A DNA stretch of 45,666 nt, taken from NCBI GenBank assembly GCA_025362495.1, contig JANYGI010000076.1, positions 1-45,666 on the forward strand, given 5' to 3'. The DNA is from Byssovorax sp. Lineage in GTDB: Bacteria > Myxococcota_A > Polyangia > Polyangiales > Polyangiaceae. The notes beneath the pieces are model-generated. The model saw nothing but the letters and a program-made list of their open reading frames with translations, was not told the DNA's origin and did no database searches. A program made the translations under genes and the position numbers. Positions within the stretch are counted from its first letter, which is position 1, and the number at the start of each line of letters is the position of its first letter. Shown one piece after another: positions 11,161-31,534 of the stretch.

Positions 11161-11259
11161 CCCCGATCTCTCGAAGGCATTTCCCGAAGGCGGGAGGAGC
11201 GCGCCGCAGACGGATGGTGGGCCCTGACGGGCCGCGTCGACAGCGCGACGTTTGCCGCT

Positions 11260-13524
<2,265 letters not shown>

Positions 13525-13555: not shown

Positions 13556-16500
13556 TTACGAGCCGCTGAGGCCGAGCTGTCCGCGCGCGTCGGCGTAGGC
13601 GTCGGAGACCGAGAAGACGACGAGCTCGCGCGCCTCGGCGTTGCGACCGATCCACGTCATGCGATCTTTGCCGGTGGCGGGAGGCGCGTTGGCGTGGCCG
13701 CCGGCCCAGGCGATGCCGGTGATGGCGACGTTGAGGTCGCCCACGGCGAGGAGCCCCGCGCGGTTGCCCCAGCCGTTGATGACCGTGTTGAGCGTCGAGG
13801 CGCGGTTACCGATGGAGCCGATGACCTCCGACGCGAGCAGCGCGACCTGCGGATCGGTCGCGCGCTGGCCGGTGGAGCGCGAGATCTTTCCGTAGAAGTC
13901 GGTGAGCTTGCCGGCGTCGACGCCCTGCGGCGCCCACCCCGGGCTGTGCGCCTTCAGGTACGCGGCGAGGAGCGGCCAGAGATCGATTGGCGCCGTGCGC
14001 GAGATCGCCGCCGTGTTGGACTGCAAGATCTTGAGCGCGCGGTGGACGAGGAAGCCACGCACGTCGTCGCGATCGGAGGCGACGAGCGCCTGCCCGAGGA
14101 GCAGCACCGGCGGGTGCGCGCTCACGGGGACGCACACCGAGCCGACGGCGCTGGAGACGAAGACCTGCAGGTTGTGCACGCCGTAGCCCGTGGCGATGTC
14201 GCGGATCGCATCGCCGAGGCTGCTGAGGTTGAGCGGCAGCGGGGCGCCGCGGACCGCGCCGAGATCGAACGGCACGGCGCTGTCGAGGAGCGGGCCCGTG
14301 AGCTTGAGCAGATCGCGGAAGGCCGGCGTCATCACCTCGGGGGCGAGGAGATCGTCGAGCTTCACGTCGGATGCGGCGACGCCCGCGCCCTCGAGCTCGG
14401 CGGGAGCGCCGTCGAGGGCGGCGACCGCGGCCTGCGCCACGCGCGCGGCGTCGGGCCGCGAGCGGAGGTCGGCGACGGTGGCGATCGTGCCGAAGAGATA
14501 AGGCTCGAAGCGCCCCGTCCCGAGGGCGCGGCGCGCGTCGGCGACGGCGCGCTCGAGCAGCATGTTGGCCGCAGGGCCCTGACCGCCGCGCTGGTAGAAG
14601 CGCGCGAGGGCGCCGAGGGCGATCTCGTCTTTCGGCCAGGTCTTGCGCGCCTGGAGCAGCGTCGCTTCGGCCTTCTTCGAGTCGCCCGTGACCTCGTGGA
14701 TCCTGGCGAGCTCGATGGTGCGCAGGCACTTGGCCTCGGGGGCCTCGGCGGCGTTGATCAGCAGCGTCTGCTGCTCGACGGCGCGGGGCGCGTCGCCCTG
14801 GCGCTGGAAGAGCGCGACGAGCCGCTCGCGCGCGGCGAGGTCACCCGGATCGCGCTTCAAGATCTCCTGGTAGGCGAGCTCGGCGCGCTCGGGGTTCGGG
14901 AGGTGCTCGTCGTAGATCTCGCCGAGGCGCAGGTAAATCGCCGCCTGGCGCGCGGGATCGGGGACGAGGCGCGCGAGACGGATCCAGGCCTGCTCGGCGC
15001 CGGACCAGTCTGCTTCAGCCGCGGCCACGTCGCCGAACGCCGAGAGCGCCTCGACGTGATCGGGGTTGGCCTCGAGCGCGGCGGCGAGCGCGCGCTTCGC
15101 GGCGGCGGCGTCGCCGACGTCGGCGAGCGCGCGGCCGCGGAGCACTTCCATCTCCACGCGCTCGGCGGGATCGGTGACGGCGTCGAGGCGCTTCTTGAGC
15201 AGCGCCGCGAGCTCGGCCCGCGCGCCCTCGGCCACGTAGATGGCTTGCAGGCGGGGGAAGACGTCGCCGTAGCTCGGATCGAGCTCGACCACGCTCTCGA
15301 ACGCGGCGCGCGCGCGGGCGCTGTCGCCCGCTTTGTCCTGCCAGAGGATCGCCGCCTTGTAGAGGTTGTGGGCGCGCTCGGCGTCGGAGACCGAGGCCTC
15401 GGCGGCGGCTTCGAGGGCCGCGGCAGCGCCGGCGAGGTTGCCGGTCTGCTCGAGGACCGAAGCCATTTCGATGTGGATCGCGAGGTGCGTCGGCGCGAGC
15501 TCGATCGCGTGGCCGAGGAAGGCCAGCGCGTCGTCCATGAGGCCGGCCTTCACCGCGCTCTGCGCGGCGCGGAGCGAGAGCGTCGCCGCCTCCGACGGGC
15601 GCTGCGTGCGCTCGATCAGCTGGCGATCGGCCTCGAGCGCCAGCATGTGCTGGCCCTGCGCGCGAGCGTGCGCCGCGGTCTGGCGGAGCGCCCAGATGCC
15701 GCGCGGCTCGTGGCGGTAGGCGATCTCCACCGGATCGCGCGTGTCGTCCCACGAGCCCGTGCGCATGCGGAGCCGCGCCGAGAGCATGGCGTGAGCGATC
15801 GCCGAGGCGCCGTCGAGGGCCTTGGCGAGCTCGAAGGTGACGGGCTCGAGCTCGTCGTCGCGGCCCGATCCGATGAGCGAGCTGGCGACGAGGCGGAGCG
15901 TGGGCAGGTGCCCCGGCGTGTCTTCGAGGATGGTGCGGCGCCAGAGCAGCGCGCTCGCGGAGTCGCCGCGGCCGCGCTCGTCGAGCTCGGCGAGGCGCTC
16001 GTAGGTCTCGAGGCGCTCGACCGGATCGGTGGCCTCGCGAGCGCGGGGCATGAGCGAGTCGATCAGGTCGCCCGTGCCGTGGCCGGCGAGGGCCGCGCGG
16101 TACATGACGATCGGCGCGAGCTGCGTCTCGCCCGCGGCGATGGCGAGGCGAGCGCAGCGCGCTGCGCCCTCCAGATCGCCGCTGCGCTCGAGCTCGAACG
16201 CGGCCTCCAGCGCGAGGCGGGCGGCCTCGGCCGGCGGCGCTTCGGCGGCGCGCTCTTCACGCCAGGCGGCGCGATCGGCGAGCGGCTCGGGGGACAGGCG
16301 CTCGTAGAGATCGCGGAGCGCGGCGTCCTTCGGGCGAGCGCGCAGGGCTTGCTCCAGCAGCGGCACCGCGGCGGCGCCCTCTCCTTCGGCGAGGATCAAC
16401 GCCTCGCGCACGAGATCGTACGCTTGCTCGAGCGGATCGGACGAGGCCTCGCGGCGCGTGCGGACCCACTCGACGACGCCGTTGCGATCGGCCCCGGCGC

Positions 16501-18883
16501 GCGACGCGCGCTCGCCCAGGCTGAGCGCGAACGGCAGCGTCGGATCGAGCTCGGCGGCGCGGCGGAGGAGCCCTTCGCTCTCGGCTTCGTCGCCGGCGTC
16601 GGCGAGGCGCACGGCGGCCTCGCCCAGCAAGATCGCGGCGCGGCTGCCGCCTTCGAGGGCCTGCGCGTGCTCGGCGATCCGCGCCGCGGCGGTGTCGCCG
16701 TCGGCGTGGGCCGCGGAGGCGCGGGTCGCCGCCTCGCCCGTCAGGTCGAGCGTGCGGGCGTGATCGTACTCGGCCTTGGCGCGCTCGATTTCTCCAGAAA
16801 CCTCGGCGATCAAAGCTCCGGCGAGGGCGCGCTCGCGCTCGCCGTCGGTGTCCTCGCGCCACGACGAGACGGCGCGGGCGACCTTGCCGCCGTTGCCCTC
16901 GTCGACGTCGAGCTCGAGCGCCAGCGCGCGCGCCGTCCCGTGCTCGGGCGCGGCGTCGGCGAAGGCGAGCACAGCGCCGCGGAGCAAGCCCGCCGTGCCT
17001 TCGCCCGTCGCCGCCATGGCGCGGCCGAGGGTCGACGCGGTGCGCGCGAGCAGCCCGCCCGCCGGGTAAACGAGGCGATCGGGCGACGCCGGATCGCCGA
17101 GAGCGGCGCTGGCGGCGGCTGCGATCGGCGCGAGCTCGGGATCGCCGAGCAGCGTGTCGATCCAGGGATCGACGTCGGATCGCTCGCCCCCCGTGAGGGC
17201 CGCGAGCGCGATGCGATCGGCGGGGCTGAACGCACCTTCGCTGGTGGAGTCCATCGCCGATCGGGCCGCGTCGGCGTCGCCGATCTCGATGGCGCGCGCC
17301 GCGAGAGCGCGGCGCGCCGCCGAGCCATGGGAGCCGTCGAGGACGCCGCGCAGCGCCGTGACAGCGCGCGCGCGTGTGTCCTTCAGCGGGGCCGCGAGCA
17401 CGGCCGCGAGCCAGCCGGCGCCGCCCGCGAGCGGCGCGACGCGCGCCAGGCCTTCGAGGCCGGTGACGGTGCGCGCGTGATCGCCCGCGGCGATCGCGGT
17501 GCGCACGTCGAGCAGCGATTCGTAGGTCGATCCCGCGATGCGCGAGGTCGTGCCGGCGACGCCACGGTGCGCGGCGACGAGCACCGCCGCGTCGGCGAGC
17601 GGCGCGAGCTCGGGCGCATCGGGGATGCGCACCTTGCCGAGCGGGGACGGCGCGGAGGCCTCGGGATCGGCCGCGGCGAGCGCCTCGCAGAAGCGCTGCA
17701 CGTAGGCGCGCGGATCGGCGGGGGCGATGCGCTGCGCGCCGTCGAGGCGCTTCTTCGAGGCCTCGTCGTCGGCCTGGCAGATGCGCGCGATCTCCGCGCC
17801 GAACAGCGCGCCGTGAGCGCGCGCTTCGGGCGTGGGAATCGACTTCGACTCGGCCTCGAGGACCTCGAGGACGGCGGGCCAGTCGCCGTCGCGCGCGAGG
17901 AGCCCGCGGGTCTGCCGGTGCGGCAGAGGCAGGCCCGGCGCGATCTCGCGCGCCTCGTCGGCCACGGCACGCGCCGTCGCCTCTTCGCCGGCCATGGCGT
18001 AGAGCTCGGACACGACGAGCAGCGCGCGGGCTCGCCCGTTGAAGTCGGAGAGCGCGCCCGCCTCGGCGCGGAGCCACTCGGAGCGGTTGACCCACGCGTC
18101 ACGCTGCTGGGCGCGGAGCAGGAGCGCGCTCGCGTCTTCCTCGCGCTCGAAGGCGACCGGCGGCGGGCGACGCGACGGGATCGGCGCGCTCACCCGCGGC
18201 GGCTCGCTCGGCGCGACGTCGGCGACCTGGGCGACGTCATCGACGTCATCGACATCGGCGACGTCAGCGACCCTCAGAGCGTCCTCGGCGGCCACGAACC
18301 CGGGCAGATCGGCCGGATCCATGTCCATCGTCGCGGCGTCCTTGTCGACGACCGGCGGCGCCGCGATCATCGCAGCGATGTCGACGTCGGGCTCGGGCTC
18401 GCTCTCGACGTGGCCGTCGATCGTGTCGAGCGCCGCGCGCGCGGGGGCGCCCGCAGCGGGCCGCGGCGGCGGCATCCCGCGCGTCCTCACGGGCGCGGCG
18501 GGCGCGATCTCTTCGACGATCTCGTCGGCCTCGGCGGACACGTCGACCTCGACCTTCGGTTGGTCGCGGGCGTCTTCGAAGAGCATGTCGAGCAGCGCGT
18601 CGCCCTCGCTGGCGGAGGGCGACGGCGCTCGCGCCGGCGCCGCGTCGCGCGAGAACATCTGCCGGAGGCCGCCCTTGGTCGGCTCTTCCTTCTGGCGATG
18701 CGCCTCGGCGAGGAGCTCGTCGGGGATGCGGGCCATCACCGTCGCTTCTTCGCCCTCGTAGTCGGAGTCGTAGAGGTCGTGATCCTCGGGCGGCGGCACC
18801 GTCGCCGGCTGAGCCGGGCGGGTGGCCTCGGGATCCACGAACTCTTCCTCGGAACCTTCGTCGTGCACGTCGCTGCTACTCAC
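13556..18883 (-). CDS. Giant TPR protein with degenerate peptidase-like C-terminal domain (1775 aa)
   Basis: The N-terminal ~250 residues are acidic and disordered, rich in Pro, Asp and Glu, with a VADVADVDDVDDV run. Residues ~260-1450 are helical repeats of TPR type (e.g. AILWQDKAGDSARARAAFES, RLGEIYDEHLPNPERAELAY). The last ~330 residues form a separate domain with PPVLLLGQAL and FLVHRALKIL near residue 1613, placed like the lG-x-HExxH region of M48 peptidases but without the catalytic residues. No signal peptide or membrane segment is seen. The start is GTG at 18883, in a GTGA overlap with the upstream paralogue. Probably a cytoplasmic scaffold; the partner is unknown. Confidence 0.85.
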   Translation of the reverse strand: MSSSDVHDEGSEEEFVDPEATRPAQPATVPPPEDHDLYDSDYEGEEATVMARIPDELLAEAHRQKEEPTKGGLRQMFSRDAAPARAPSPSASEGDALLDMLFEDARDQPKVEVDVSAEADEIVEEIAPAAPVRTRGMPPPRPAAGAPARAALDTIDGHVESEPEPDVDIAAMIAAPPVVDKDAATMDMDPADLPGFVAAEDALRVADVADVDDVDDVAQVADVAPSEPPRVSAPIPSRRPPPVAFEREEDASALLLRAQQRDAWVNRSEWLRAEAGALSDFNGRARALLVVSELYAMAGEEATARAVADEAREIAPGLPLPHRQTRGLLARDGDWPAVLEVLEAESKSIPTPEARAHGALFGAEIARICQADDEASKKRLDGAQRIAPADPRAYVQRFCEALAAADPEASAPSPLGKVRIPDAPELAPLADAAVLVAAHRGVAGTTSRIAGSTYESLLDVRTAIAAGDHARTVTGLEGLARVAPLAGGAGWLAAVLAAPLKDTRARAVTALRGVLDGSHGSAARRALAARAIEIGDADAARSAMDSTSEGAFSPADRIALAALTGGERSDVDPWIDTLLGDPELAPIAAAASAALGDPASPDRLVYPAGGLLARTASTLGRAMAATGEGTAGLLRGAVLAFADAAPEHGTARALALELDVDEGNGGKVARAVSSWREDTDGERERALAGALIAEVSGEIERAKAEYDHARTLDLTGEAATRASAAHADGDTAAARIAEHAQALEGGSRAAILLGEAAVRLADAGDEAESEGLLRRAAELDPTLPFALSLGERASRAGADRNGVVEWVRTRREASSDPLEQAYDLVREALILAEGEGAAAVPLLEQALRARPKDAALRDLYERLSPEPLADRAAWREERAAEAPPAEAARLALEAAFELERSGDLEGAARCARLAIAAGETQLAPIVMYRAALAGHGTGDLIDSLMPRAREATDPVERLETYERLAELDERGRGDSASALLWRRTILEDTPGHLPTLRLVASSLIGSGRDDELEPVTFELAKALDGASAIAHAMLSARLRMRTGSWDDTRDPVEIAYRHEPRGIWALRQTAAHARAQGQHMLALEADRQLIERTQRPSEAATLSLRAAQSAVKAGLMDDALAFLGHAIELAPTHLAIHIEMASVLEQTGNLAGAAAALEAAAEASVSDAERAHNLYKAAILWQDKAGDSARARAAFESVVELDPSYGDVFPRLQAIYVAEGARAELAALLKKRLDAVTDPAERVEMEVLRGRALADVGDAAAAKRALAAALEANPDHVEALSAFGDVAAAEADWSGAEQAWIRLARLVPDPARQAAIYLRLGEIYDEHLPNPERAELAYQEILKRDPGDLAARERLVALFQRQGDAPRAVEQQTLLINAAEAPEAKCLRTIELARIHEVTGDSKKAEATLLQARKTWPKDEIALGALARFYQRGGQGPAANMLLERAVADARRALGTGRFEPYLFGTIATVADLRSRPDAARVAQAAVAALDGAPAELEGAGVAASDVKLDDLLAPEVMTPAFRDLLKLTGPLLDSAVPFDLGAVRGAPLPLNLSSLGDAIRDIATGYGVHNLQVFVSSAVGSVCVPVSAHPPVLLLGQALVASDRDDVRGFLVHRALKILQSNTAAISRTAPIDLWPLLAAYLKAHSPGWAPQGVDAGKLTDFYGKISRSTGQRATDPQVALLASEVIGSIGNRASTLNTVINGWGNRAGLLAVGDLNVAITGIAWAGGHANAPPATGKDRMTWIGRNAEARELVVFSVSDAYADARGQLGLSGS

Positions 18884-21800
18884 CGGACCCCCATGCCGAG
18901 CTTCTTGCGAAGCTCGAGATAGCTGGGAGAAAGAACAAACCCGAGCAGGCGACGGGCCCGCTCGTTGTCGGCGCAGAGGCCGCCGAGCTCGGTACGAGGC
19001 GCGCCGAGGATCTCGGCGAGCACGATGGAAACATCACCGGCGGCGATGACCGCGAGGCGATCGATGCTGCGACGCGCGATGGCCGCCCATTGCCGGGGAT
19101 CCTGGCCGCTGGCCATGATCCGCTGGCAGATGTCGGGGATGGCCTTGCGGACCTTGCGCGGGATCTCCTTCTTCACGGCGCGCGAGACCTCGCCGAAGAC
19201 GGCGTACTGCGGGCTCGGCACGTTGAGGCCCGCCTCTTGGCTGGCCGCGATCACCAGCGAGGCGATGGTGTTGTCGTCGCGGGTGCGCACCGCGGTGATG
19301 CCGCGGCGGAGCGCAAAGACCTCGCGCGCGACCGCCGATCGCGTGGCGGCGTCGAAGGGCTTGGTGATCCCGCTGCCGAGCACGATCGCCGGCTGCTCGC
19401 CCGCGATGGCGTGGACGCCGCGAGCATCGGGCCCGCCGATGTAGAGGTCGAAGTCGCCCGTGAGGCCGATCGCGCCCATCCACTCGACCACGGCGACGCG
19501 GAGCGGGTGGCCGCCGCGCGGATCGATCTTGTCTTTCTTGGTGACGCCGAGCGACGAGAGCGAGGGCCCGAGGGCCAGCATCACGGTCTCGGCCATGGCC
19601 GGGAACAGCTCGGCGATCGGGCCGCCGTCCTGGGGATCGGCGATCTCCGCGAGCATGCGGTCGTCGAGCGCTTGCGGCGGCTGCGCGGCGACGCGGCGAT
19701 CGAGCTGCGCGAGCTCGTCCGTGAGCGCCTGGGTGTTGCGGCCGAGCGCCACGAGCGCGCCGACCGTGGCCTGACGCAGCCCCGCGTCGTTGCCGAACGC
19801 GGCGAGCTTCGCGAGGAGCAGCACCCGATCGGCGTCGCACGGGTTGCTCGCGAGCGCGGCAATGAGCGTCTGCCGCGCGCGACCGAGGACGCGGACCTTG
19901 AACGAGGCGTCGAAGCCCGTCGCCAGGACGAAATCGATCGCCTCGCCGTCGTCGGGCGCCTCTTCGAGGAGCTTCTCCACCGCGGCCTGCGCGCGCACGG
20001 GGACGTTGAGCTTGTCGCGCCAGAACGTCATCCCGAGCCGCGCCGCCTCGATGCGGCCCTCGCTCTTGTCACGCTCGTTCATCAGCGATTCGAGGATGCT
20101 CGTCGCTTCGCCCCAGGCGCCGGCGCGGGCCGCCACGCGGGCGAGGCGCTCGCGCACGGGCAGCGTCGAGAGCCCCGCCTGGTGCAGCTTCGTCAGCACC
20201 TCGAGGGCCTTGTCGGGCTGCCCGAGCTTGTTCTCGTAGATGTCGACGGCCATGATCCCCGACATCAGCCGCTGCTGATTCGGCGCGTCCTGCGTCACGG
20301 AGAGGCGGGCGAGGAACGGAGCGGCCTCGGCGAAGGCGCCCTTCTTCATCTGCACCTCGCCGAGCAGCGCGAGCGCGCCGACGTGGTCGGGCTCGAGCAT
20401 CGTCACGTTCTCGAGCGCCGCGAGCGCGCCGTCGAGATCGCCCTTCTTGCGGAGTACGCGGGCGCGCTCCCAGTAGAGCTTGCCGATCTCCTGGTCGTCC
20501 TCCGACACGTCGAGCCGCTTCTCGATGATGGCGAGGAGCTTGTCGTCCTCGCTGCGCGAGCGCACGGCGCGGAAGAACTTGTCGAAGGCGATCGCGCGAC
20601 GAGGATCGCGATCGAAGGCGCGCGAGAAGGCGATCTCGGCGTCGTCCTTGGCGTCGGTGTGCTCGAGGAGGATCACCCCGGCGGCCTCCCAGAACTCGGC
20701 GCCACGCTCGTCGTCCTTGCAGAGCGCGCCGAGCTGCGCCGTCGCGAGGGCGGCCTGCACGTGATCGCCGAGGCCCGTCGAGGCGCTGCGCACACCCTCC
20801 CAGGCCGCGAGATCTTCGGGGCGATGCTCGATCACCGTCCGGAACGCGGCGCGCGCCGCGTCGAAGTTCGAGGCGGCGAGATCCGACCAGCCCGCGAGGC
20901 CGATCGCGTCGATCTGCGAGTCCTCGCCGAGCGCGAGGCCGAGGCCGTGGAGCGCGGCGGAGCGACGGCGCGGATCGCAGCCGGGGAACGCCAGCTCGAG
21001 GTTCATGAGCTGCGCCGGGGCCTCGTCGCCCTGGATGAAGCCCTGCGGGATCGTCGGCTGATCGAGGAGTTCGACCAGGGCCGCGCTCGCGAGCATCGCG
21101 GCGCGCGCGGCGCCGGTGAAATGCGTCGCGGCGGAACGCCGCGCGGCGATCTCGGCGTCGCGATCTTCGGCGGCGATCGCCGCGCCGATCCACTCGAGAG
21201 CGGCATGGAGCTGCGGATCGGCGGCGGCCCACGCGGCGGCGCGCGTCGTCGTCACCATGCGATCCTGGTCGAGCGTGCGCGCGAGGCGGAAGCGCTCGGC
21301 CGCGGCGATCGCCGAGGCTTCGCCGCCGCGATCGTCGAGCACGTCGAGCGCGCGATCGACCGGGCCACGCGCTTCGAGCGCCGCCGGCCAGAGCACGCGC
21401 CCGAGAGCCGCGGCGAGCTCGAGATCGCCCGAGCTGTCGTGCTCCAGCGTCTCCAGCGCCGAGAGCGCCTCGACCGCGTCGCCCATGGCGCTCTCGAGGC
21501 CGAAGCGCTCGATCGCCACCACGTCCGCAGCTTCGCCGGCGTCGGCGGCGACCTCGAGGGCGCGGCGTCGGCCTTCCACCGTGTCGGCGTCGGCGCCGCG
21601 GAGCGCCCACGTGAGCATCGTCGCGCCGGCGCGGGGCACGCTCGCGCGCGTGGCCTCGAGCTCCTCGACGGCCTTCTGCCTATCGCCCGCGCGGAACAGC
21701 AAGAGCGCGGCTTCGAGGCGGAGCGCGGCGCCGAGATCGGCGTCCTCGCTCTCGCCCGCGCACGCCGAGAGCGCCGCGGCCGCAGCGCGAGGATCGCCGG

Positions 21801-23625
21801 CGCGACGCTCGAGCTCGGCGAGGAAGATCGCCGCAACCGGATCGCCCGGCGATTGCGTGTGAAGCTCGCGCAGCCCCTGGCGCGCCCCCTCGACGTCGGC
21901 GGCCTTCACGCGGCGGAGCGCGGCGACGATCCAGAGCGCCCGCGCCATGCCCGCGTCGGTCTCGACCTGGGCGAGGGCCTCGATCGCCGACGGCGAGCGC
22001 GGCTTGCGATCGGCCGGGGCGACCTCATCGGCGCCGGCGAGCCCGATGGCGTACGCGCCGAGCGCGCGCCCGAGCCACGCCGATCCGTTCGCCTCTTCGC
22101 CGCCCGACGCGGCGAGCCGCTCGAACGCCGCCGCGGCGCCCGCCTCGTCGCCGCGGAGGAGCTTGCTTCGACCGAGCTCGAACCACAGGCTCGGCTGCTC
22201 GGCGGCGTCGACACCCGCGGCGATCAGCGCCTCGGTGGCCTCGGTGTACCAGACGGCGTCTTTTCGCAGCGCCGCGAGCGTGCGCGCGACGCGGGCGATC
22301 GTCGTCGCGGGGACGCCGTTCTGCCCGGCTTGCGCCAGCGCCTTCTTTGCGGCCGACGTCTCGCCGGCTTGTACCGCCCACACGTGCGCGGCGAAGAGGT
22401 ACGCGCGGCCCTTCGGCGCCGGCGCGGTGAACGAATCGGCGAGCGCCTCGTAGGCCGCGGCGAGGCCCGCGGCGTCGGCGCTGTCGCTGAGGCGATCGAT
22501 CTCCAGCGCGCGCGCGGGGATCGAGTCGCGATCGAACTGGAGAGCGTTGCGGAGCGCGTCGAGCGCGCCGTCGCGATCGCCGGCCTTGCCGGCCGCCTCG
22601 GCGACGCGGACCCACAGCGAGGCCGCGCTCGGGCCCGTCGCGCCGCGCGCCAGCTCTTGCCTGGCGAGCTCGGCCGCGCCGGCCACGTCGCCCGCGGCTT
22701 CCAGCGTCGCGAGCCGCGCCCGCCCGATCACCGCCGAGTCGGGCAGCCGCTGCGCGGCGCGCTCGATCATCCCGGCGCCGCTGCTGTCGCCCATGCGCGT
22801 GTGCGCCGCAGCCGCGCGCAGCCAGGCGTCGGCCGCGAACTCCGCCTTGCGCATGTGGCGCGGAACGCCGGTCGCATCCCCGCGCTCGGCGTCGTCGATC
22901 GCTTCCTCGATCAGATCGGCCTGGCCTTCGAGCGCCCGCGCGAGGGCCTCGTGGTTCTCTTCCTTGGCGGCGACCTGCTCGACCACGATCTGCGTGCGGA
23001 AGCGCGCCTTGCCTTCGAGCGCCGCCGCGGCGCCGAGGAGCTGGTAGGCCCGCGGCGCGTCGCCCGCGGCGGCCGAGAGCTCGGCGAGATCGATGAAGAG
23101 CAGCGCCTGCCACGTCGGATCCGTCGCGAGCTCGGCGCGCGCTTCGAGGGCCCGGAGGCGGCCGTCCGCGTCGCCGACCTTGGCCGCGCAGAGCTCGAGC
23201 TCGAGCCACAGCGCCGGATCTTCGGGGCTGCCGCCGATGGCTTCCTCGAGCAGCTCCTTCGCGCCGGGCACGTTGTTCTCGTGCGTCTGCAGGTACGAGG
23301 CGCGCTCCCAGAACGCGCGCGCTCGCTCCTCCGGCGTGGCCGCGGCGCGGGTGAGCGCGTCGAGCAGCTTGCCGAGGTTCTTGATCGATTTGCGCCGCGA
23401 CAAGATCCGCACGAGCGCCTCGAGGGGCTCGCGGAACTGCGGGTCGGCGTTGAAGGCGGCCAGGAAATCGCGCGCAGCGACGGGCTCTTCGCCGCTGGTT
23501 TCTTCGAGCACGCCGCACTCGTGCAGCAGCAGCGCCTGGGCGCTCTTGTCCGGGTGGGCGGCATGCTCGGCGCGAAGCCGTGCGACGAGAGCGCCGGCGG
23601 CGCCGTCGGGGGTCTGGACTGTCAT
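18880..23625 (-). CDS. Giant TPR protein paralogue with degenerate peptidase-like C-terminal domain (1581 aa)
   Basis: The product begins MTVQTPDGAAGALV and is almost wholly TPR-like helical repeats (e.g. ALWLELELCAAKVGDADGRL, ELAFPGCDPRRRSAALHGLG). The C-terminal ~300 residues match the layout of the neighbour: DFDLYIGG, GEQPAIVLGSGI and VAREVFALRRGI near residue 1432, then IASLVIAASQEAGL. In the position of an HExxH motif it reads REVFA. It lacks the long acidic N-terminus of the 1775-residue paralogue. It is the first gene of the minus-strand unit and overlaps the next by 4 nt, so equal expression and a shared complex are likely. Function unknown. Confidence 0.85.
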   Translation of the reverse strand: MTVQTPDGAAGALVARLRAEHAAHPDKSAQALLLHECGVLEETSGEEPVAARDFLAAFNADPQFREPLEALVRILSRRKSIKNLGKLLDALTRAAATPEERARAFWERASYLQTHENNVPGAKELLEEAIGGSPEDPALWLELELCAAKVGDADGRLRALEARAELATDPTWQALLFIDLAELSAAAGDAPRAYQLLGAAAALEGKARFRTQIVVEQVAAKEENHEALARALEGQADLIEEAIDDAERGDATGVPRHMRKAEFAADAWLRAAAAHTRMGDSSGAGMIERAAQRLPDSAVIGRARLATLEAAGDVAGAAELARQELARGATGPSAASLWVRVAEAAGKAGDRDGALDALRNALQFDRDSIPARALEIDRLSDSADAAGLAAAYEALADSFTAPAPKGRAYLFAAHVWAVQAGETSAAKKALAQAGQNGVPATTIARVARTLAALRKDAVWYTEATEALIAAGVDAAEQPSLWFELGRSKLLRGDEAGAAAAFERLAASGGEEANGSAWLGRALGAYAIGLAGADEVAPADRKPRSPSAIEALAQVETDAGMARALWIVAALRRVKAADVEGARQGLRELHTQSPGDPVAAIFLAELERRAGDPRAAAAALSACAGESEDADLGAALRLEAALLLFRAGDRQKAVEELEATRASVPRAGATMLTWALRGADADTVEGRRRALEVAADAGEAADVVAIERFGLESAMGDAVEALSALETLEHDSSGDLELAAALGRVLWPAALEARGPVDRALDVLDDRGGEASAIAAAERFRLARTLDQDRMVTTTRAAAWAAADPQLHAALEWIGAAIAAEDRDAEIAARRSAATHFTGAARAAMLASAALVELLDQPTIPQGFIQGDEAPAQLMNLELAFPGCDPRRRSAALHGLGLALGEDSQIDAIGLAGWSDLAASNFDAARAAFRTVIEHRPEDLAAWEGVRSASTGLGDHVQAALATAQLGALCKDDERGAEFWEAAGVILLEHTDAKDDAEIAFSRAFDRDPRRAIAFDKFFRAVRSRSEDDKLLAIIEKRLDVSEDDQEIGKLYWERARVLRKKGDLDGALAALENVTMLEPDHVGALALLGEVQMKKGAFAEAAPFLARLSVTQDAPNQQRLMSGIMAVDIYENKLGQPDKALEVLTKLHQAGLSTLPVRERLARVAARAGAWGEATSILESLMNERDKSEGRIEAARLGMTFWRDKLNVPVRAQAAVEKLLEEAPDDGEAIDFVLATGFDASFKVRVLGRARQTLIAALASNPCDADRVLLLAKLAAFGNDAGLRQATVGALVALGRNTQALTDELAQLDRRVAAQPPQALDDRMLAEIADPQDGGPIAELFPAMAETVMLALGPSLSSLGVTKKDKIDPRGGHPLRVAVVEWMGAIGLTGDFDLYIGGPDARGVHAIAGEQPAIVLGSGITKPFDAATRSAVAREVFALRRGITAVRTRDDNTIASLVIAASQEAGLNVPSPQYAVFGEVSRAVKKEIPRKVRKAIPDICQRIMASGQDPRQWAAIARRSIDRLAVIAAGDVSIVLAEILGAPRTELGGLCADNERARRLLGFVLSPSYLELRKKLGMGVR

Positions 23626-23651
23626 GTCGGTGGGCGGGCCTCCGAAGCCAT
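23622..23651 (-). promoter_or_regulatory. Possible nine-codon upstream ORF coupled to the TPR gene
   Basis: An ATG at 23651 preceded closely by GAGGA opens a frame reading MASEARPPT. Its TGA stop overlaps the ATG of the 1581-residue TPR gene as ATGA. The main ATG has no well-placed ribosome-binding sequence: GGAGG is 13 nt away. Translation of the short frame could therefore deliver ribosomes to the TPR start. The short spacing between GAGG and the upstream ATG weakens the case. Confidence 0.22.
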
Positions 23652-23831
23652 TTCCTCGTGATGCGGGACCGAAGACTAGACCAAGGGCGACGCCGTTGTC
23701 ATGCCATCGATCCCGTCCCTGCGAGCAGGCGCCTCCCGCGGGCGCGCAGGCTTCGCCTTCGGGGCCTCCCTGCCCTGGCGGCTCACCTTCCAGAAAGCCC
23801 CACCAAACGCTTTCATGCTACGGTCGCCTTC

Positions 23832-24125
23832 ATGAGCGGCGCCGCCCCAAAGCTCGATTTCACGGCTCCGGCGCTGGCAGATGATCCCGCCTGGGAGGCG
23901 CTGGTCACGGCCGCCGCCGAGGCGCCCGAGGCAGAGGCACCCCCGCCCGCGGAGGCCTCTCCCGAGCCTTTCGAGTACTTCGCCGATCCGACGCCCGAGA
24001 TGCTGGCCGTCGGGGCCGCCTACGAAGAGGGCCACGCCCTCTACGGCGACGAGGACGGCGACGCCTGGATCGCTGCGCTCGAAGACGGCACGCACCCGCT
24101 CTGCCGCGTCAAGACCGCCGCGTAG
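23832..24125 (+). CDS. Small acidic protein of unknown function
   Basis: The 97-residue product starts at the ATG at 23832 (MSGAAPKLDF). It is acidic and Ala/Glu/Pro-rich in the first half. The second half, FEYFADPTPEMLAVGAAYEEGHALYGDEDGDAWIAALE, looks like a compact helical segment. It has no signal peptide and I recognise no family. The next gene starts 11 nt downstream, so they are probably co-transcribed. Confidence 0.6.
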   Translation: MSGAAPKLDFTAPALADDPAWEALVTAAAEAPEAEAPPPAEASPEPFEYFADPTPEMLAVGAAYEEGHALYGDEDGDAWIAALEDGTHPLCRVKTAA

Positions 24126-24136
24126 CGCTCGGGCGG

Positions 24137-24547
24137 ATGCTGCCCGTTCTGCCCCGCCTCCTCGCGGGCTACGAGCTCTTCGCGCGACGGAATCGGTTCG
24201 CTGCCGAGCGCAACGAGGCGGCCCTGGCCGACGCCCTCGACGACGCCGCGGCGCTCGCCCGGGGTCGCGAGATCGACGAGCCGGCCGCGCTCTTCCTGGC
24301 GCTGGCGCGCCGGCCGCGGGCCTTCGGCAGAGAGCACGGTCGCGTCGTCATCCACTTCACCGTCGAGCACGCGCGTGGCCTCGGCCTCGCGCTCACGGTC
24401 GACGTCGCCGTGCTCGAGCTGATGCGCGCCCGCGTCGTGCGCAGCGCGAGCGAGCGGGTGCGCGCGTTCGCCGCGGTCGTTGAGCGGGTTTGCCAGGAGA
24501 AGATCGCGAGCTTGCGGGCAGCAGCGGAGGCCGCGGGCGACCGCTGA
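24137..24547 (+). CDS. Hypothetical helical protein
   Basis: The 136-residue product (MLPVLPRLLAGYELF) is predicted mostly alpha-helical, with EPAALFLALARRPRAFG and VVIHFTVEHARGLGLALT as its most distinctive stretches. The second half faintly recalls Doc/Fic-like folds, but no HPFxxGN motif is present, so no activity is assigned. It lies 11 nt after the acidic small protein and 112 nt before the next gene. Confidence 0.55.
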   Translation: MLPVLPRLLAGYELFARRNRFAAERNEAALADALDDAAALARGREIDEPAALFLALARRPRAFGREHGRVVIHFTVEHARGLGLALTVDVAVLELMRARVVRSASERVRAFAAVVERVCQEKIASLRAAAEAAGDR

Positions 24548-24659
24548 CCTGGTCGAACCGACGAGCGACTGGAAGCAATTTCCGGATGAACTCGACCACG
24601 TGGGCCCGCTGTCGCTTTCTTGGTTGAACCATGAACGTGGGTCCGCGTACCGTCGTCGC

Positions 24660-25436
24660 ATGGCCATCTCGCTCGATCCGGTCACCTACGCTCACGCTCC
24701 GTCGATCACTGTATCCACCGGGATCACGCTCGCCCACGCTCTCGTCGATGCTTGCCCGAAGAATGCGCCAGCCAACGTCAAGAAGGCTGCTGTCTACCTC
24801 AAATCGATTGCCGATCTCGCGCGCACCGATCTGGCGGACCGCAATCGCGCGCTGGGTACGTTTCCGGACGAGGACTCACGCGCTCTCGATAACGAGGCTG
24901 ACCGCTGCTGGGGCGGGTTCCGCCTCGGCATCCAGGGAAGAGCGATGCTGCGCCAGGACCTCTATCCGAAGGCCAGGCTCGCCGCCGAGCTCGACGCCAA
25001 GCTCTTCGCGCAAGGCACCGAGTTCCTCAAGGCCGAGTACGCCTCGCAGAGCAGCAGCATGGCTGTACTGCTGCAGATGATCGACGACGACAAGCTGGAG
25101 AAAGACATCAACGCTGTCGTCGGTCCCGATTTCTTGACGGCGATCCGCGACGTGCAGCCGCGCTACGAGGCGATGGTGAAGGAGCGATTGCGCCGCGACA
25201 CGGCCTCGGGGCAGAACCTGACGGAGCGGGTGCGGACGATTCAGAACGCGATCGTGAATTATGCGAGCAAGGTCGTGGGCTCCGTCGAGCACGACGATCC
25301 GGCGACGGCCGAGGCGGCGCGCGTGGCGTTGCTGCCGATCGTGAACCACCGCGAGGCGGCCGCGGCGGCGCAGCGCCCGGCTCCGGTGGCTGTCGCAGAG
25401 CCGATCGTCGATCCGAAAAAGGTCGAGCCGAGCTGA
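24660..25436 (+). CDS. Hypothetical 258-aa protein
   Basis: The ATG at 24660 (MAISLDPVTYAHAP) is chosen because the in-frame upstream extension is Arg-rich and reads through the end of the preceding gene. The sequence is helical and polar (IADLARTDLADRNRALG, DNEADRCWGGFRLGIQGRA, LQMIDDDKLEKDINAV) and ends in a Pro/Ala/Val tail. No signal peptide, membrane segment or catalytic motif is visible and I do not recognise the family. Codon bias fits a real gene. A hairpin begins about 25 nt after the stop. Confidence 0.7.
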   Translation: MAISLDPVTYAHAPSITVSTGITLAHALVDACPKNAPANVKKAAVYLKSIADLARTDLADRNRALGTFPDEDSRALDNEADRCWGGFRLGIQGRAMLRQDLYPKARLAAELDAKLFAQGTEFLKAEYASQSSSMAVLLQMIDDDKLEKDINAVVGPDFLTAIRDVQPRYEAMVKERLRRDTASGQNLTERVRTIQNAIVNYASKVVGSVEHDDPATAEAARVALLPIVNHREAAAAAQRPAPVAVAEPIVDPKKVEPS

Positions 25437-25461
25437 GGTAGCCGCGGGTGGCTGGCGGAAC

Positions 25462-25480
25462 CTGGTTCGATCCGAGCCAG
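25462..25480. terminator. Hairpin downstream of the 258-aa gene
   Basis: CTGGTTCG (25462-25469) and CGAGCCAG (25473-25480) form an 8-bp stem with one G-T pair and a 3-nt loop. No T-run follows. It is placed where a terminator of the preceding gene would be expected. Confidence 0.35.
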
Positions 25481-25571
25481 TGAGCTTCAAGCACCTTCGC
25501 AGGCTCGTCGTGGCCCAGCCAAGCGACGTCCCAGGAGCCGCCTCGGCAGCGCACAGACCCGCTCCTCGACG

Positions 25572-25710
25572 TTCCGGGAGGCGGGGTGACCTGCTTGCAA
25601 CCAGCTCCCTCTTGATGGCGGGAGGCTGCACCACGGCTCGTGGACCAGCGGAGAGACCTTCCGGGAGGTCCAGCGCTCGGTTGAAAGCAGGTCGGAGACC
25701 TTCCGGGAGG
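25572..25710 (+). repeat. Three copies of TTCCGGGAGG
   Basis: Copies lie at 25572-25581, 25659-25668 and 25701-25710. The last two extend to the 16-mer GAGACCTTCCGGGAGG (25653-25668 and 25695-25710). Both longer copies sit inside hairpin loops. Spacing is irregular (87 and 42 nt), so this is not a CRISPR array. Confidence 0.6.
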
Positions 25711-25727
25711 CCTCCGACCTGCTTTTT
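25687..25727 (+). terminator. Strong rho-independent terminator
   Basis: GCAGGTCGGAG (25687-25697) and CTCCGACCTGC (25712-25722) form a perfect 11-bp stem around a 14-nt loop that is itself partly self-complementary. TTTTT follows at 25723-25727. The nearest annotated gene stops 250 bases upstream, after its own hairpin, so this terminator may end an unannotated RNA starting between about 25480 and 25650. Confidence 0.7.
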
Positions 25728-25962
25728 CTGCGGAGATAGCGGGATGTTCGAACGCTCGTCGGAGGCCTCGCGAAGAAATTGGACTTCCGCCTGGTGGTCC
25801 GGCCGAAATGAAAGCGCGGCCGCCTTGAAGGCCACTCGATCGGAGTAATCGGGCTGCCACGAAGCCACGAAACCGCGGGCCACGCGGTTCCCGGGCCGCG
25901 TGCACGCGCTCGTCCGGCTTCGCCGCGTTCCCCGACGCACGGGTTCGCGCTATCGTCTCCAG

Positions 25963-26145
25963 ATGCAAGCTGTGGCCAACAAGCAGCGGATCCTGAACGC
26001 CCTCGACGATCTCCCGGAAGACGCGAGCGTCGAGGACGCCATCGAACGCCTCTACTTTCTCGCCAAGGTCGAGAAAGGATTTGCGGAGCTCGATGCAGGT
26101 CAGAGCGTCGACCACGACGAGGTGAAGCGCCGAGTCGGGTTGTGA
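25963..26145 (+). CDS. Antitoxin of a ParE-type toxin-antitoxin pair
   Basis: The 60-residue product starts at the ATG at 25963 (MQAVANKQRIL). It has the short helical form of small antitoxins paired with RelE/ParE toxins: LDDLPEDASVEDAIERLYFLAKVEKGFAELDAG with a C-terminal HDEVKRRVG. Its TGA overlaps the GTG start of the toxin frame (GTGA at 26142). It would bind and neutralise the toxin and repress the operon. The gene appears intact although the toxin frame is broken. A longer start at 25900 adds an Arg-rich tail and is rejected. Confidence 0.8.
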   Translation: MQAVANKQRILNALDDLPEDASVEDAIERLYFLAKVEKGFAELDAGQSVDHDEVKRRVGL

Positions 26146-27601: not shown

Positions 27602-30600
27602 ATGGTCAAGGTCGAGTGCGACGGGTGCAAAGCGCCCTACCAGATCGACGAGAAGCGCATTCCGCCGGCAGGCCTGAAGATGCGCTGCCCCAAGTGCGGG
27701 ACGAATCTCGTCGTGATGAAGCCGGAGAGCGGGGCGAGCGAGGCCGATTTGCCCGCGCCCGCGCCCGTCAAGCAGAGCCCGTTCGCGGGCGGAGCGCCGC
27801 GCCCAGCGGGCCCCCCGCCGCGGCCCGCGCCCGCCGCGCCGCCGCGCCCCGCCGCGAAGGCCCAGGCTTCGTCGCTCGAAGACGATCTGCTCGATTTACC
27901 GAGCGCCACGCGCGCCGCGCCGGACTTCGGCGGCCCGCGCACCGGCATCGGCTTTGGCCCGCCGGCCCCTCGCCCCGCAGCGCCCGCGCCGCGCGGCGGC
28001 TTCGGCGAGATCGACTTGATGATCGATCTCCCCGCCCCCACGGGCTTCGAGACGAGCGAGCTCGACGCTGATTTCGGCGCCCAGGACCTGCCCGTGGTCC
28101 ACGGCGCGCTGGCGGCGAAGGCCCCGTTCGGGCGCGCTGTCACCCGCAACCGCACGATGGATCTGGGCGAGACCGATTTCGAGGACGCGTCCGATCTGCT
28201 CGACGAGGCCCCCAGCCTCGAGGCCGACTTCGGCGACGTCGATCTGCCCGCCGTTCAGCCCGACGCGGAGCTGCCGAGCCTCCCCGGCGGCGTGATCGAC
28301 TTTCCGCGGGCCCGCGGCGGCCAGGCTCCGTTCCATGGGGCCCCGCGCGCCCCCTCGGCGCCGCCCGGCGCGCTCGGCTTTGGCGAGCTCGATCTCCCTG
28401 CGCCGCCGCGCGCCGGGAGCGGCGGCGCCTTCGGGGAGATCGATCTTCCCTCCGCCCACGACGAGACCGGTCTCCCCGCGAGCCGCAGCCCCGAGCCTTC
28501 GTTCGGTCACATCGATCTGCCGCTCACGTTCGGTGAGGCCTCGCTGCCCGCGCTGTCGGGCCGCGATTCGTTGCCCGCGCTGTCGGGCCGCGACTCGTTG
28601 CCCTCGGTGGCGGCGTACGGCCTGCCTGCCCCCGCGATGGGATCGGGCTTGCCGATGCCGTCGCAGGGTGGATCCGGCTTGCCGATGCCGGCGACGGCGT
28701 CGGGCCTCCCGGCCCCGGCGAGCGGCTCGGGGTTGCCCATCTCCGCGATGGCCGCGGGCTTCCCCGCGTCCGCGACGGCGTCGGGCTTGCCCTCGTCGGC
28801 GAGCGGCCCTTCGCTCCCCATGGTGATGCCCGGCGGCGGCTTGCCCGCGGCGCTCGGCGGTGGTTACGACGGCGAGGCCGATCTCGGCGGTGATTCACCG
28901 CTCGGCGCGTTCGACGACTCCGATCGCGCGATCTCCACCACGGCCGGCCCGAACATGGACGGCGCGGTCGGCCTCGACGACGGCCCCGGCGGTGCTCCGG
29001 TGGGCGACGAGGCCGACATCACGGGCCAGACGTCGGTCGACGGCGCCGGCGTGGTGCGACCCGCGACGCCGCGCCCCGCGCCGAAGGCGGCGCGCGCGGC
29101 CCGGAGCCGGCGCGTCGCGATCCTCGCTGCGGTCGCGCTCGCGGTCGGCGGCGGCGCGCTCACGCTCGAGCCTTCGATCGGGCCGTTCGGCATCAACTTC
29201 ATCGGCGATCGCGTCAACGCGAAGGCCAACACGGCCAAGCTCGACGATCTGCGCACGAGCGTGCAAGCCGACTTCGACGAGGACACGGCCGCCGCCGCGA
29301 AGCACGCGTTCGGATCGGCGCTGGCGGCGCAGGCCGCGGTGCCGCGCCACCGCGCGACGGCGGCGTACGCGTCGTACGTGGCCCTCGCGCGCGGGCTCCG
29401 CTTCGGCCACCGCACCGAGGACGACACGCGCGGCGAGCAGCTCCTCGCCGCTGCGGGCGTCGAGCCTAGCGACGCGCGCTCGCTCGCGGTCGCGGCGCAG
29501 GCCGCCGGCAAAGCCCAGCTCCCGCAGGCGCGGCAGGCCCTCGCCGAGGTGCTGCAGCGCGCGCCGAAGGACGTCGACGCGCTCGATCTCGCCGGCGAGA
29601 TCGAGCTCGCCGCGAAGGCTCCGGCCGACGCGGTGAAGGCCTGGAAGCAGGCCGTCGCGGCGCGCGGCGACCGGAAGAGCGCCCGCGCCCTCTTCGGCCT
29701 CGCGCGGGCCGAGGTCGCCGCGGGCGACACCGCCGGCGCCGAGGCCGCGGCGCGCGCGGCGATGGTCGCCTCCAAGCTCCACGCCGGCGCGCGCACGCTG
29801 CTCGCGTCGCTGCTGTGGCAAGCGCCCGATCACGAGGCCGAGGCCCTGACGCTGCTCAAGGCCGTGACCGACGACGCCGCCGTGCGCGGCGCCGCGAGCG
29901 ACGTCGAGCTGATCGAGGCCTACACGCTGCTCGGGCGCGTGCACCTCACGCGCTCGCGCATCTCCGCGGCCGAGCAGGCCTTCGCCGCGGCGCTGAAGCT
30001 CGATCCGCAGGCCGTGCAGGCCCTGATCGGCAACGGGGAGCTGTTCTACCGATCGGGCCGCTACTCCGAGGCCCTCGCGCGCTTCGAGGCGGCGACGCGC
30101 TCCGACGCCGAGAACGTCCCCGCGAAGGTGGGCGTGGCCAAGACGTGGCTCGCTCTCGAGCGGATGAAAGAGTCGAAAGATCTGCTGAAAAAGCAGCGCG
30201 AAACCCACCCGGGCGACTCGCTCGTCTCGTACTGGCTCGGCCGCACCGAGGAGGCCCTCGGCGACAAGAAGGACGCCGAGACGATGTACGGCGAGGCGAT
30301 CAAGCTCGGCGGCGGCAAGCCCGAGGTGGTCGACGCGTACGTGTCGCTCGCGCGCTTGCTCAGCGGCTCGGGCCGCACCGACGAGGCCGCGCAGAAGCTC
30401 GCGGAGGCCTCGCAGAAGTTCCCGGAGCTGCCCGCGCTGCACCGCGCGAAGGGCGACGTCGCGCTCCAGACGGGCCGCTACGAAGAGGCCCGCGACGAGC
30501 TGAAGGCGGCGCTCGTCAACGACGACGATCTCGGCACGCGCTTCAAGCTCGGCGTCGCCCAGCGGCGGCTGCGCGCGTTCGCCGAGGCCGCCGCGGTGTT

Positions 30601-31534
30601 CGACGCCATCTCCGCGATCGACAAGGACTACCCCGGCCTCGCGCTCGAGCGCGGCCTGATGTTCGAGGAGACGGGCCAGAGCGACAAGGCCCTCGAGTCG
30701 TACTCCGACGCGCTCCGCAAGGCGCCGAACGACGTCGATCTCAAGCTCCGCGTCGGCTCGACGCAGGTCATCGCGGGGCACGCCGATCAGGCCGAGGCGA
30801 TCCTCCGTCAGGTCGTGAAAGAGCGCCCCGGCTCGGCCGAGGCCAACCACTTCCTCGGCCGCGCGCTGCTCACCAAGGGGACGAACCTCACCGAGGCGAT
30901 GAAGTACCTCGAGGCCGCGGTGAACATCGACGGTAACCGCGCCGAGTACCACCTCTACGTCGGCTGGGGCGCCAACGACACGGGCCAGCCCGCGCGCGCC
31001 GAGACGGCCCTGAAGAAGGCCCTCGAGCTCGACAAGGGCCTCGGCGACGCCTACTGGCAGCGCGGCATCCTCCGGCAGAAGAGCGGCAGCGCCGCCGACG
31101 CGCTCGAAGACTTGAAGACCGCGCTCGAGAAGCGACCGTCGCGCTACGAGGCCTATGCGACGATGGGCTTCTGCTACCAGGATCTCAGCCGCTGGGCCGA
31201 AGCCGAGGCCGCGTGGCGCAGCGCGATCGCCGGCAACCCGAGCATCGCCGAGTGGCACTATCGCCTCGGGAAAATCCTCGCGAGCCACGGCAGCGTCGCC
31301 GCCTCGGGCCCCGAGCTCGAGCAGGCCGTCAAGCTCGCCGATCTGCCCGATCACCCCGTGCCGGGCTGGCTCTACGACGCGCACCTGCTGCTCGCCGAGG
31401 CCGTGCGCGGCAGCAACAAGGCCCGCGCGATCGAGAGCTACCGGCGCTTCCTCGAGCTCGCCCCGCACGACAGCCCATACGTGAGCGAGGCCGAGAAGGG
31501 CCTGGTCTCGCTGGGCGCGACGCCGCAGCGCTGA
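27602..31534 (+). CDS. Zinc-ribbon, single-pass membrane, TPR protein with FGxxDLP repeats
   Basis: The 1310-residue product starts at the ATG at 27602. Residues 6-32 form an MJ0042-type zinc ribbon (Cys 6, 9, 29, 32). A ~470-residue disordered region rich in Pro, Ala and Gly follows, with six FGxxDLP-type motifs and a later block of (S/G)GLP repeats. One membrane segment lies near residues 503-522 (RRVAILAAVALAVGG). The C-terminal ~780 residues are TPR repeats. The likely topology is ribbon in the cytoplasm, TPR in the periplasm. The layout recalls the zinc-ribbon domain of the gliding protein GltJ/AgmX, but homology beyond the ribbon is not claimed. Confidence 0.88.
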   Translation: MVKVECDGCKAPYQIDEKRIPPAGLKMRCPKCGTNLVVMKPESGASEADLPAPAPVKQSPFAGGAPRPAGPPPRPAPAAPPRPAAKAQASSLEDDLLDLPSATRAAPDFGGPRTGIGFGPPAPRPAAPAPRGGFGEIDLMIDLPAPTGFETSELDADFGAQDLPVVHGALAAKAPFGRAVTRNRTMDLGETDFEDASDLLDEAPSLEADFGDVDLPAVQPDAELPSLPGGVIDFPRARGGQAPFHGAPRAPSAPPGALGFGELDLPAPPRAGSGGAFGEIDLPSAHDETGLPASRSPEPSFGHIDLPLTFGEASLPALSGRDSLPALSGRDSLPSVAAYGLPAPAMGSGLPMPSQGGSGLPMPATASGLPAPASGSGLPISAMAAGFPASATASGLPSSASGPSLPMVMPGGGLPAALGGGYDGEADLGGDSPLGAFDDSDRAISTTAGPNMDGAVGLDDGPGGAPVGDEADITGQTSVDGAGVVRPATPRPAPKAARAARSRRVAILAAVALAVGGGALTLEPSIGPFGINFIGDRVNAKANTAKLDDLRTSVQADFDEDTAAAAKHAFGSALAAQAAVPRHRATAAYASYVALARGLRFGHRTEDDTRGEQLLAAAGVEPSDARSLAVAAQAAGKAQLPQARQALAEVLQRAPKDVDALDLAGEIELAAKAPADAVKAWKQAVAARGDRKSARALFGLARAEVAAGDTAGAEAAARAAMVASKLHAGARTLLASLLWQAPDHEAEALTLLKAVTDDAAVRGAASDVELIEAYTLLGRVHLTRSRISAAEQAFAAALKLDPQAVQALIGNGELFYRSGRYSEALARFEAATRSDAENVPAKVGVAKTWLALERMKESKDLLKKQRETHPGDSLVSYWLGRTEEALGDKKDAETMYGEAIKLGGGKPEVVDAYVSLARLLSGSGRTDEAAQKLAEASQKFPELPALHRAKGDVALQTGRYEEARDELKAALVNDDDLGTRFKLGVAQRRLRAFAEAAAVFDAISAIDKDYPGLALERGLMFEETGQSDKALESYSDALRKAPNDVDLKLRVGSTQVIAGHADQAEAILRQVVKERPGSAEANHFLGRALLTKGTNLTEAMKYLEAAVNIDGNRAEYHLYVGWGANDTGQPARAETALKKALELDKGLGDAYWQRGILRQKSGSAADALEDLKTALEKRPSRYEAYATMGFCYQDLSRWAEAEAAWRSAIAGNPSIAEWHYRLGKILASHGSVAASGPELEQAVKLADLPDHPVPGWLYDAHLLLAEAVRGSNKARAIESYRRFLELAPHDSPYVSEAEKGLVSLGATPQR
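28550..28603 (+). repeat. 27-bp tandem duplication inside the zinc-ribbon TPR gene
   Basis: Two adjacent 27-base units (28550-28576 and 28577-28603) differ at one base and encode ALSGRDSLP twice. The in-frame duplication adds one linear motif to the disordered region. It is followed to about 28830 by looser (S/G)GLP repeats. Confidence 0.85.

Follow-up and report, generated by a model that had tools for sequence, protein, structure and literature searches.

The stretch of DNA analyzed here (the window; 45,666 nucleotides of contig JANYGI010000076.1 from Byssovorax sp., assembly GCA_025362495.1) encodes two giant tetratricopeptide repeat (TPR) proteins, A and B, each of which appears to consist of a long TPR arm that ends in a catalytically dead head of the M48 peptidase type. 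The computation supports the fold of these C-terminal tails, their homology to M48 peptidases, the loss of the metal ligands, the sister paralogy of A and B, their adjacency and the presence of the same tail on giant proteins resembling GltI. We read A and B as a conserved cytosolic pair built of TPR arms and dead M48 heads, which is possibly the base of a machine of the cell envelope, related to the Glt system yet distinct from it, a reading for and against which the chances seem to us about equal.

The earlier note on this DNA, made without database searches, had described two overlapping genes for TPR proteins of 1581 and 1775 residues, and both open reading frames (ORFs) are indeed present, sharing 4 base pairs (bp; Table 1). 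Above Pfam cut-offs, the two proteins show TPR-type and related helical-repeat models only. By hydropathy scan, A has no N-terminal hydrophobic segment, its sole stretch above the threshold (residues 1524-1542) lying within the modelled tail, and B has no segment above the threshold. The host assembly comprises 10.8 Mb in 240 contigs, and the A tail of Minicystis rosea DSM 24000 (genome G038), a member of the same family as the host, is 77% identical to the A tail found here.

The C-terminal tails and their relation to M48 peptidases

Matching C-terminal domains in A and B had been proposed from short quoted segments, which we located at residues 1411-1441 of A and 1591-1620 of B. This match was recovered by BLASTP in an alignment of A with B that reaches both C-termini (E 2e-10, 689 columns including TPRs), and by a profile-profile comparison of the tails alone with hhalign, in which 251 columns were aligned (probability 98.9, E 1.7e-17). 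The profile alignments hold the window together with 31 of 32 loci for A (A2; L132 was excluded, its reading frame continuing to the end of the locus) and with 28 of 32 loci for B (A3; L118, L125, L129 and L132 gave no full B tail). Because matches recur in 93 of 97 related genomes for the A tail and in 84 of 97 for the B tail, the distant rows including paralogues, the resemblance exceeds what chance would produce. A contig search with full-length A gave no match, whereas the same search with the tail alignment did.

AlphaFold models of the tails were obtained from 32 aligned A tails (predicted local distance difference test (pLDDT) 94.9, predicted template-modelling score (pTM) 0.92) and 29 aligned B tails (pLDDT 93.4, pTM 0.92). 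When VIA alignment was applied to the candidates supplied by Foldseek, with families missing from the VIA lists not counted as evidence, peptidases of the M48/M56 type led the lists for both models. HtpX heads the list for B (Z 8.4, root-mean-square deviation (rmsd) 2.5, 95 of 101 residues), followed by 3c37, BepA, BlaR1, Ste24/ZMPSTE24 and abylysin with Z from 5.8 to 7.8, while abylysin heads that for A (Z 6.4, rmsd 4.0, 99 of 105 residues), followed by 3c37, BepA, Ste24 and BlaR1 with Z from 5.2 to 5.8 and, in lower rows, mostly other zinc peptidases. The tool itself warns that Z values of such size are common and may mean little alone; the M48 fold is accepted because the two separate models agree with each other and with the sequence evidence. 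The two models are confident, and their VIA lists are headed mainly by zincins. The outcome that would have spoken against the earlier note, predicted folds without relation to one another or to the gluzincins, was looked for and not found, with the reservation that Foldseek by itself gave no match below E 0.001.

The sequence comparison used an M48 profile built from 34 ORFs with an HExxH motif, chosen by motif pattern and mostly from relatives of the same order. Aligned to this profile with hhalign, A scored 34.6 over 189 columns (pairwise E 3e-4) and B 34.2 (pairwise E 5e-4), while a group of 16 paralogues, group C, scored 55.4 over 190 columns (pairwise E 3.5e-7) and the family of 118 rows 55.4 over 196 columns (pairwise E 7e-7). 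With 60 column shuffles per test, the best shuffled scores were 14.6 (A), 16.0 (B), 13.7 (group C) and 11.1 (family), none of the 60 matching the real score in any test, and reversed profiles scored 10.5 to 13.4. Furthermore, the family profile A4, run with HMMER among 350 ORFs, matched the intact M48 peptidases L160 (E 7.5e-8), L159 (E 5.2e-6) and L163 (E 6.7e-5), each match adding up two weak segments that follow each other in the correct order; the best single segment reached 8.6e-5.

Several results weigh against this assignment. Foldseek found nothing in the PDB below E 0.001 for either model (best 0.20 for A and 0.26 for B), its top rows nevertheless being zincins (ZMPSTE24 and Ste24 for B; MATCAP, lethal factor and BepA for A); unrelated chains, such as fusions of G-protein-coupled receptors, turn up in the VIA list for B from rank 19 down; the hhalign match of B to the M48 profile spans just 67 columns; the converse HMMER search with the M48 profile returned no family member at E <=10; and PF01435 matched none of 29 family members at E 1, nor full-length A or B. 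Together with Z values mostly below 8 and the lack of any M48 match in Pfam or NCBIfam, these results would suit the alternative that the tails are not M48 relatives and resemble them through a common alpha/beta arrangement. However, the top rows for two separate models come mainly from one superfamily, the shuffled and reversed controls fall far below the real scores, and the family profile finds intact M48 peptidases in two ordered segments, so that we regard this alternative as rather improbable. A degenerate M48-like fold in both tails, as the earlier note had put forward, is where models, VIA lists and profile homology agree, and M48-like fold, M48 homology and inactivity of the tails are very likely. 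Among the 29 members, no Pfam or NCBIfam model reached its cut-off, the few weak rows being scattered, and the tail domain is therefore not described in these two databases; when the family profile was run against PDB sequences, only designed TPR proteins and chance rows came up.

The former active site was placed by aligned profiles (Table 1). HMMER pairs the family segment 'fllaRala' with 'FVIGHEVG' of L160, and the family segment 'aarrsadRaall' with RRAEITCDRAGLL of the same protein. In B, R1615 falls on the column of the first His, A1616 on that of the Glu and I1619 on that of the second His, with H1614 one residue earlier. Of 169 domains, 152 have Arg in the first-His column and 165 retain the Arg of the DR motif. 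The Glu column is mixed, with E in 57 rows, A in 58 and various residues in the remainder, and at the third-ligand Glu column R (33) and N (30) are most frequent. An HExxH motif at the site was absent from 118 domains and, again, from the set of 169; the single HExxH, in L124, lies near the start of the stretch and off the site. That neither paralogue has a full site was thus rightly noted before, and no zinc ligand is kept across the 169 domains. Since the zinc ligands are gone, the tails are read as pseudopeptidases, which is well supported.

The further proposal of the earlier note, that one paralogue keeps the His of the motif and the other the Glu, held for the Glu and failed for the His. 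E1435 of A occupies the column of the catalytic Glu, without variation among the 32 aligned A tails, whereas H1614 of B lies one residue off the motif, in a column that is His in only 5 of 29 B tails; invariant in B tails are the Arg that follows it and the Lys three residues further on. Counting without gaps from the conserved Gly in the edge strand, the register of the earlier note, pairs H1614 with R1434. The A-B, A-M48 and family-M48 profile alignments and HMMER place R1434 and R1615 on the first-His column, and a motif shared out between the paralogues was rejected for the His. While the invariance of E1435 and the strong conservation of two Arg residues, that of the first-His column and that of the DR motif, could point to enzyme activity through a noncanonical site, the mixed Glu column and the absence of any retained zinc ligand make such activity extremely improbable.

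Compared with intact M48 peptidases (PF01435; the nearest here being the Myxococcota proteins L133, L159 and L160), the tails are alike in fold and profile homology and share the region W..RRA.I.CDRAGLL except its Glu. Unlike these peptidases, they are without HExxH and the third-ligand Glu, are borne on long TPR arms and lie below the reach of Pfam. In M48 peptidases, the substrate lies along an edge strand beside the active-site helix; the dead head may have kept this peptide-binding strand before the former active-site helix and could use it as a docking site.

Table 1. Features of the A-B locus, with positions in the window
Feature	Position	Strand	Basis
Gene B, TPR protein with C-terminal putative pseudo-M48 domain, 1775 aa, GTG start	13556..18883	-	ORF and Pfam TPR
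Gene A, TPR protein with C-terminal putative pseudo-M48 domain, 1581 aa, ATG start	18880..23625	-	ORF and Pfam TPR
Overlap of A and B, 4 bp, GTGA (contains the TGA stop codon of A and the GTG start codon of B)	18880..18883	-	junction sequence
Putative pseudo-M48 domain of A, residues 1361-1578	18892..19545	-	model, VIA, hhalign to M48 (P0003 82-299)
Putative pseudo-M48 domain of B, residues 1539-1772	13568..14269	-	model, VIA to HtpX (model 90-283), hhalign to M48 only P0004 97-164
HExxH position in A: R1434 (first His to Arg), E1435 (Glu kept), A1438 (second His to Ala)	19312..19326	-	hhalign, HMMER, residue map
HExxH position in B: H1614 R1615 A1616 .. K1618 I1619	14027..14044	-	hhalign A-B, family alignment, conservation, residue map
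Third-ligand region of A: R1518 in place of the Glu, to D1522 R1523 (DR motif kept)	19057..19074	-	HMMER to L160/L159, residue map
Third-ligand region of B: N1703 in place of the Glu, to N1707 R1708	13760..13777	-	motif read in B, residue map
PPIC-type peptidyl-prolyl isomerase, one N-terminal hydrophobic segment	26857..27531	-	PF00639 E 2.9e-6, hydropathy
Zinc-ribbon (MJ0042 type)/one-transmembrane/TPR protein, divergent	27602..31534	+	PF13717 2.8e-10 and TPR models, TIGR02098 1.7e-7, hydropathy

Adjacency and ancestry of A and B

All 55 genomes that contain A at E <=1e-30 also gave a match to B, and in 48 of them B lies beside A on the same contig; a check of co-occurrence had been suggested in the earlier note. 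Among the 7 genomes in which the genes were not adjacent, 6 are assemblies of at least 470 contigs, while the seventh, G054, has 5 contigs and carries the two genes on different ones.

In a maximum-likelihood tree of 76 domains, an A clade (16 rows, support 100/99) is sister to a B clade (15 rows, 100/99) with support 97/81. The tree holds random samples of 14 of 65 A rows and 15 of 62 B rows, with the window rows kept, together with all 36 unassigned rows, 4 GltI-like tails, the host copies on contigs C139 and C171, and 5 of 34 M48 rows; rows shorter than 240 residues and the host copy C17 were left out. By label, A does not form one group, as L085 and L088 sit in the A clade but scored below the A threshold. 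A second clade of 18 rows (97/91) comprises the four GltI-like tails, the PilB-side copy, the C171 copy and a group of kinase-TPR proteins, and the GltI-like rows form no single group inside it; the tree has several long branches and is rooted at the midpoint only. The A-B clade is separate from the one holding the GltI-like tails. A and B are sister paralogues in this tree, most plainly explained by an old tandem duplication.

Short stop/start overlaps of this sort are associated with coupled translation, and the 4-bp overlap suggests translational coupling of A and B. As the genes are coupled, their adjacency constant and their ancestry shared, it is suggested that A and B act together. They may be produced together and work as one complex, a heteromer for which adjacency, the overlap and co-occurrence argue, the models being of single domains; whether such a scaffold acts as a pair at the membrane we regard as an evenly poised question. 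Paralogues need no complex to account for their adjacency, and the separate contigs in G054 likewise fit two independent scaffolds held side by side through old tandem duplication and common regulation only. This alternative is credible, if somewhat less probable than its opposite, given that the genes stand side by side in most genomes across many genera, that they overlap here and that the invariant residues of the A tail differ from those of the B tail. A candidate N-terminal motif of B was dropped, its pattern matching only 3 of 28 orthologues.

Other carriers of the tail and known systems

The tail is not confined to A and B. Among 235 genomes drawn from the phylum, at least 131 gave a match to the family profile A4 at E 0.001, up to 9 candidates per genome being scored, and the host genome contains eight. 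Among the matches listed are open frames of 3,366 to 4,081 aa. GltI-like giants of four genomes, the host (G000), Minicystis (G038), G187 and G166, carry the tail domain at A4 E-values of about 1e-39 to 1e-46, and their neighbourhoods were inspected. The giants of G187 and G166 adjoin GltG-like (NF033760, E 1.6e-119 and 1.9e-99) and GltC-like proteins (NF033756, E 3.8e-124 and 2.1e-90); that of Minicystis has GltG-like (1.3e-101), GltC-like (7.5e-80) and weakly GltE-like (4.6e-14) neighbours, and that of the host GltG-like (3.3e-97) and GltE-like (1.2e-20) ones. All these neighbour scores fall below curated cut-offs, hence the naming as 'Glt-like'.

GltI of Myxococcus xanthus (AgmK, MXAN_4863) has been described as a TPR protein of 4132 aa, with no signal peptide or transmembrane segment reported (PMC3169522), and has been named a scaffold of large size that, together with GltG, connects AglQ of the gliding motor with MreB (PMC13104615). 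The Nfs system is said to lack GltI paralogues (PMC3858216). Our comparison is with the GltI-like giants, in place of M. xanthus GltI itself. Like A and B, GltI is TPR-rich, and the GltI-like giants carry the same C-terminal domain; they differ in length, with about 4,000 aa compared to 1581 and 1775 aa, and in lying beside GltG-like genes, neighbours which A and B do not have. In the open-access texts consulted, we found no description of a folded C-terminal domain in GltI. Nor did we find a report of a pseudo-M48 family common to GltI-like and other proteins, weak evidence that none exists. As kinds of protein, both pseudopeptidases and TPR scaffolds are already known.

BepA, among the top VIA rows for both models, likewise combines an M48 fold and TPRs in one protein. 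Unlike A and B, it is an active zinc peptidase and periplasmic, and its TPRs presumably follow the M48 domain, opposite to the order in A and B. The edge strand of BepA has been reported to bind LptD (PMC8423444).

One host relative lies near pilus genes. In L222 (G000:C139:98000-116000), a 1048-aa TPR protein with the tail (7776-10922, minus strand) is encoded near PilB (TIGR02538, E 3.6e-241) and a PilT-like gene; an FHA-domain gene and a kinase-type gene lie between. A link of this protein to type IV pili is possible. It resembles SgmX of M. xanthus (MXAN_5766), a cytosolic TPR protein of 1,060 aa described as TPRs only, whose C-terminal part binds MglA-GTP (PMC7668184). Orthology with SgmX was considered and could not be established, no family member having been found around PilB in G187 and G261 (20-kb stretches, eight in all, in which ORFs were picked by codon composition and those cut by the stretch ends are shortened). 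A further host paralogue, of 1794 aa, in L220 (G000:C178:18000-36000; 7479-12863, plus strand) has a protein kinase domain (PF00069, 1.2e-18) in addition to TPRs and the pseudo-M48 tail. Furthermore, the host genome has 27 matches to NF033768, the family of the AgmX/PglI C-terminal domain, 18 of them above cut-off, a copy number that exceeds the need of one gliding system.

The recurrence of the tail could be taken to mean that the pseudo-M48 domain is a common docking head of myxobacterial cytosolic machines, by which GltI-like, kinase-TPR, pilus-side and A-B proteins would bind the same kind of partner, for example an MglA-type Ras-like GTPase, or a motor or cytoskeleton. A dead protease fold would then have been reused several times as a coupling part in machines of motility and of the envelope, and A-B would be the core of an undescribed machine. 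We consider this joint claim unlikely, as the effectors of MglA in gliding are listed as MreB, AglZ, AglR and GltJ, a list that does not name GltI (PMC12288465), and as the pil loci of two other genomes are without a member. If the end of GltI is a dead M48 domain common to giant TPR proteins, it would offer a defined piece of approximately 220 to 240 residues to delete or to use as bait, and the notion of a 'large TPR scaffold' would become a testable coupling mechanism.

Neighbouring genes and a possible envelope machine

Upstream of A, the window encodes a peptidyl-prolyl isomerase (PPIase) and, divergently, a protein with a zinc ribbon, one transmembrane segment and TPRs, whose ORF opens at 27368, the start at 27602 being our reading. 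Of 32 A/B loci, some of them too short to include these genes, 23 have a relative of the PPIase and 19 one of the zinc-ribbon protein, and the loci keep the order and strand of the window: the divergent zinc-ribbon protein, then PPIase, A and B. This conserved arrangement makes the two proteins the likeliest partners of A and B, with which they might constitute the cytosolic base of a machine in the cell envelope. Such a machine would be comparable with GltI in gliding, yet a separate system, and the conserved A-B pair in Polyangiales may thus belong to an envelope machine that has not been described. That it serves motility in particular seems doubtful to us.

Three observations speak against an envelope machine related to Glt. 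The zinc-ribbon protein matches the N-terminus of GltJ (1.8e-5) over the zinc ribbon only (residues 82-131). Among ten window ORFs around A-B searched against Pfam, none is of the FHA or TonB type and the neighbours are not Glt genes, the NCBIfam scan of the neighbourhood having covered the zinc-ribbon protein alone. Finally, in the model of one review, GltG and GltI possibly thread through the peptidoglycan, a point which, according to the review, has not been investigated (PMC12288465); threading of this kind would be a misfit with a purely cytosolic GltI.

Alternatively, A and B could be dead-M48 TPR scaffolds of a soluble cytosolic process, as an assembly factor or a regulatory or stress scaffold. 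Neither has a transmembrane or signal segment by hydropathy, the tail of the kinase-bearing host paralogue implies that the domain serves different proteins, and the conserved neighbours in the window are without a proven role. While these points give such a role a fair hearing, the conserved neighbours are of the membrane type by hydropathy and the relatives with known context are GltI-like, and we judge it a possibility of the lesser sort, with the envelope machine the reading we favour.

Other features of the locus vary. A 318-aa ORF between PPIase and A (24480-25436, plus strand), with a match to DUF6261 below cut-off (PF19775, E 3.9e-5), has no relative within the 32 loci, and scans of 23400-27800 for promoter-like elements and with Rfam gave nothing relevant. 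Downstream of B follow a molybdopterin oxidoreductase (11260-13524, minus strand), relatives of which are absent from all 32 A/B loci compared, and a tRNA-Ser (tga; 11076-11162, plus strand). In 8 of the 32 loci, including L102, L103, L109, L120 and L121, a protein of approximately 96 aa (95 to 113 aa), forming one cluster, is encoded between PPIase and A; we take it to resemble polyhydroxyalkanoate-system proteins. Furthermore, a gene that is presumably AtpC-like stands upstream of PPIase-A-B in 4 of the 32 loci (L120, L121, L124 and L132).

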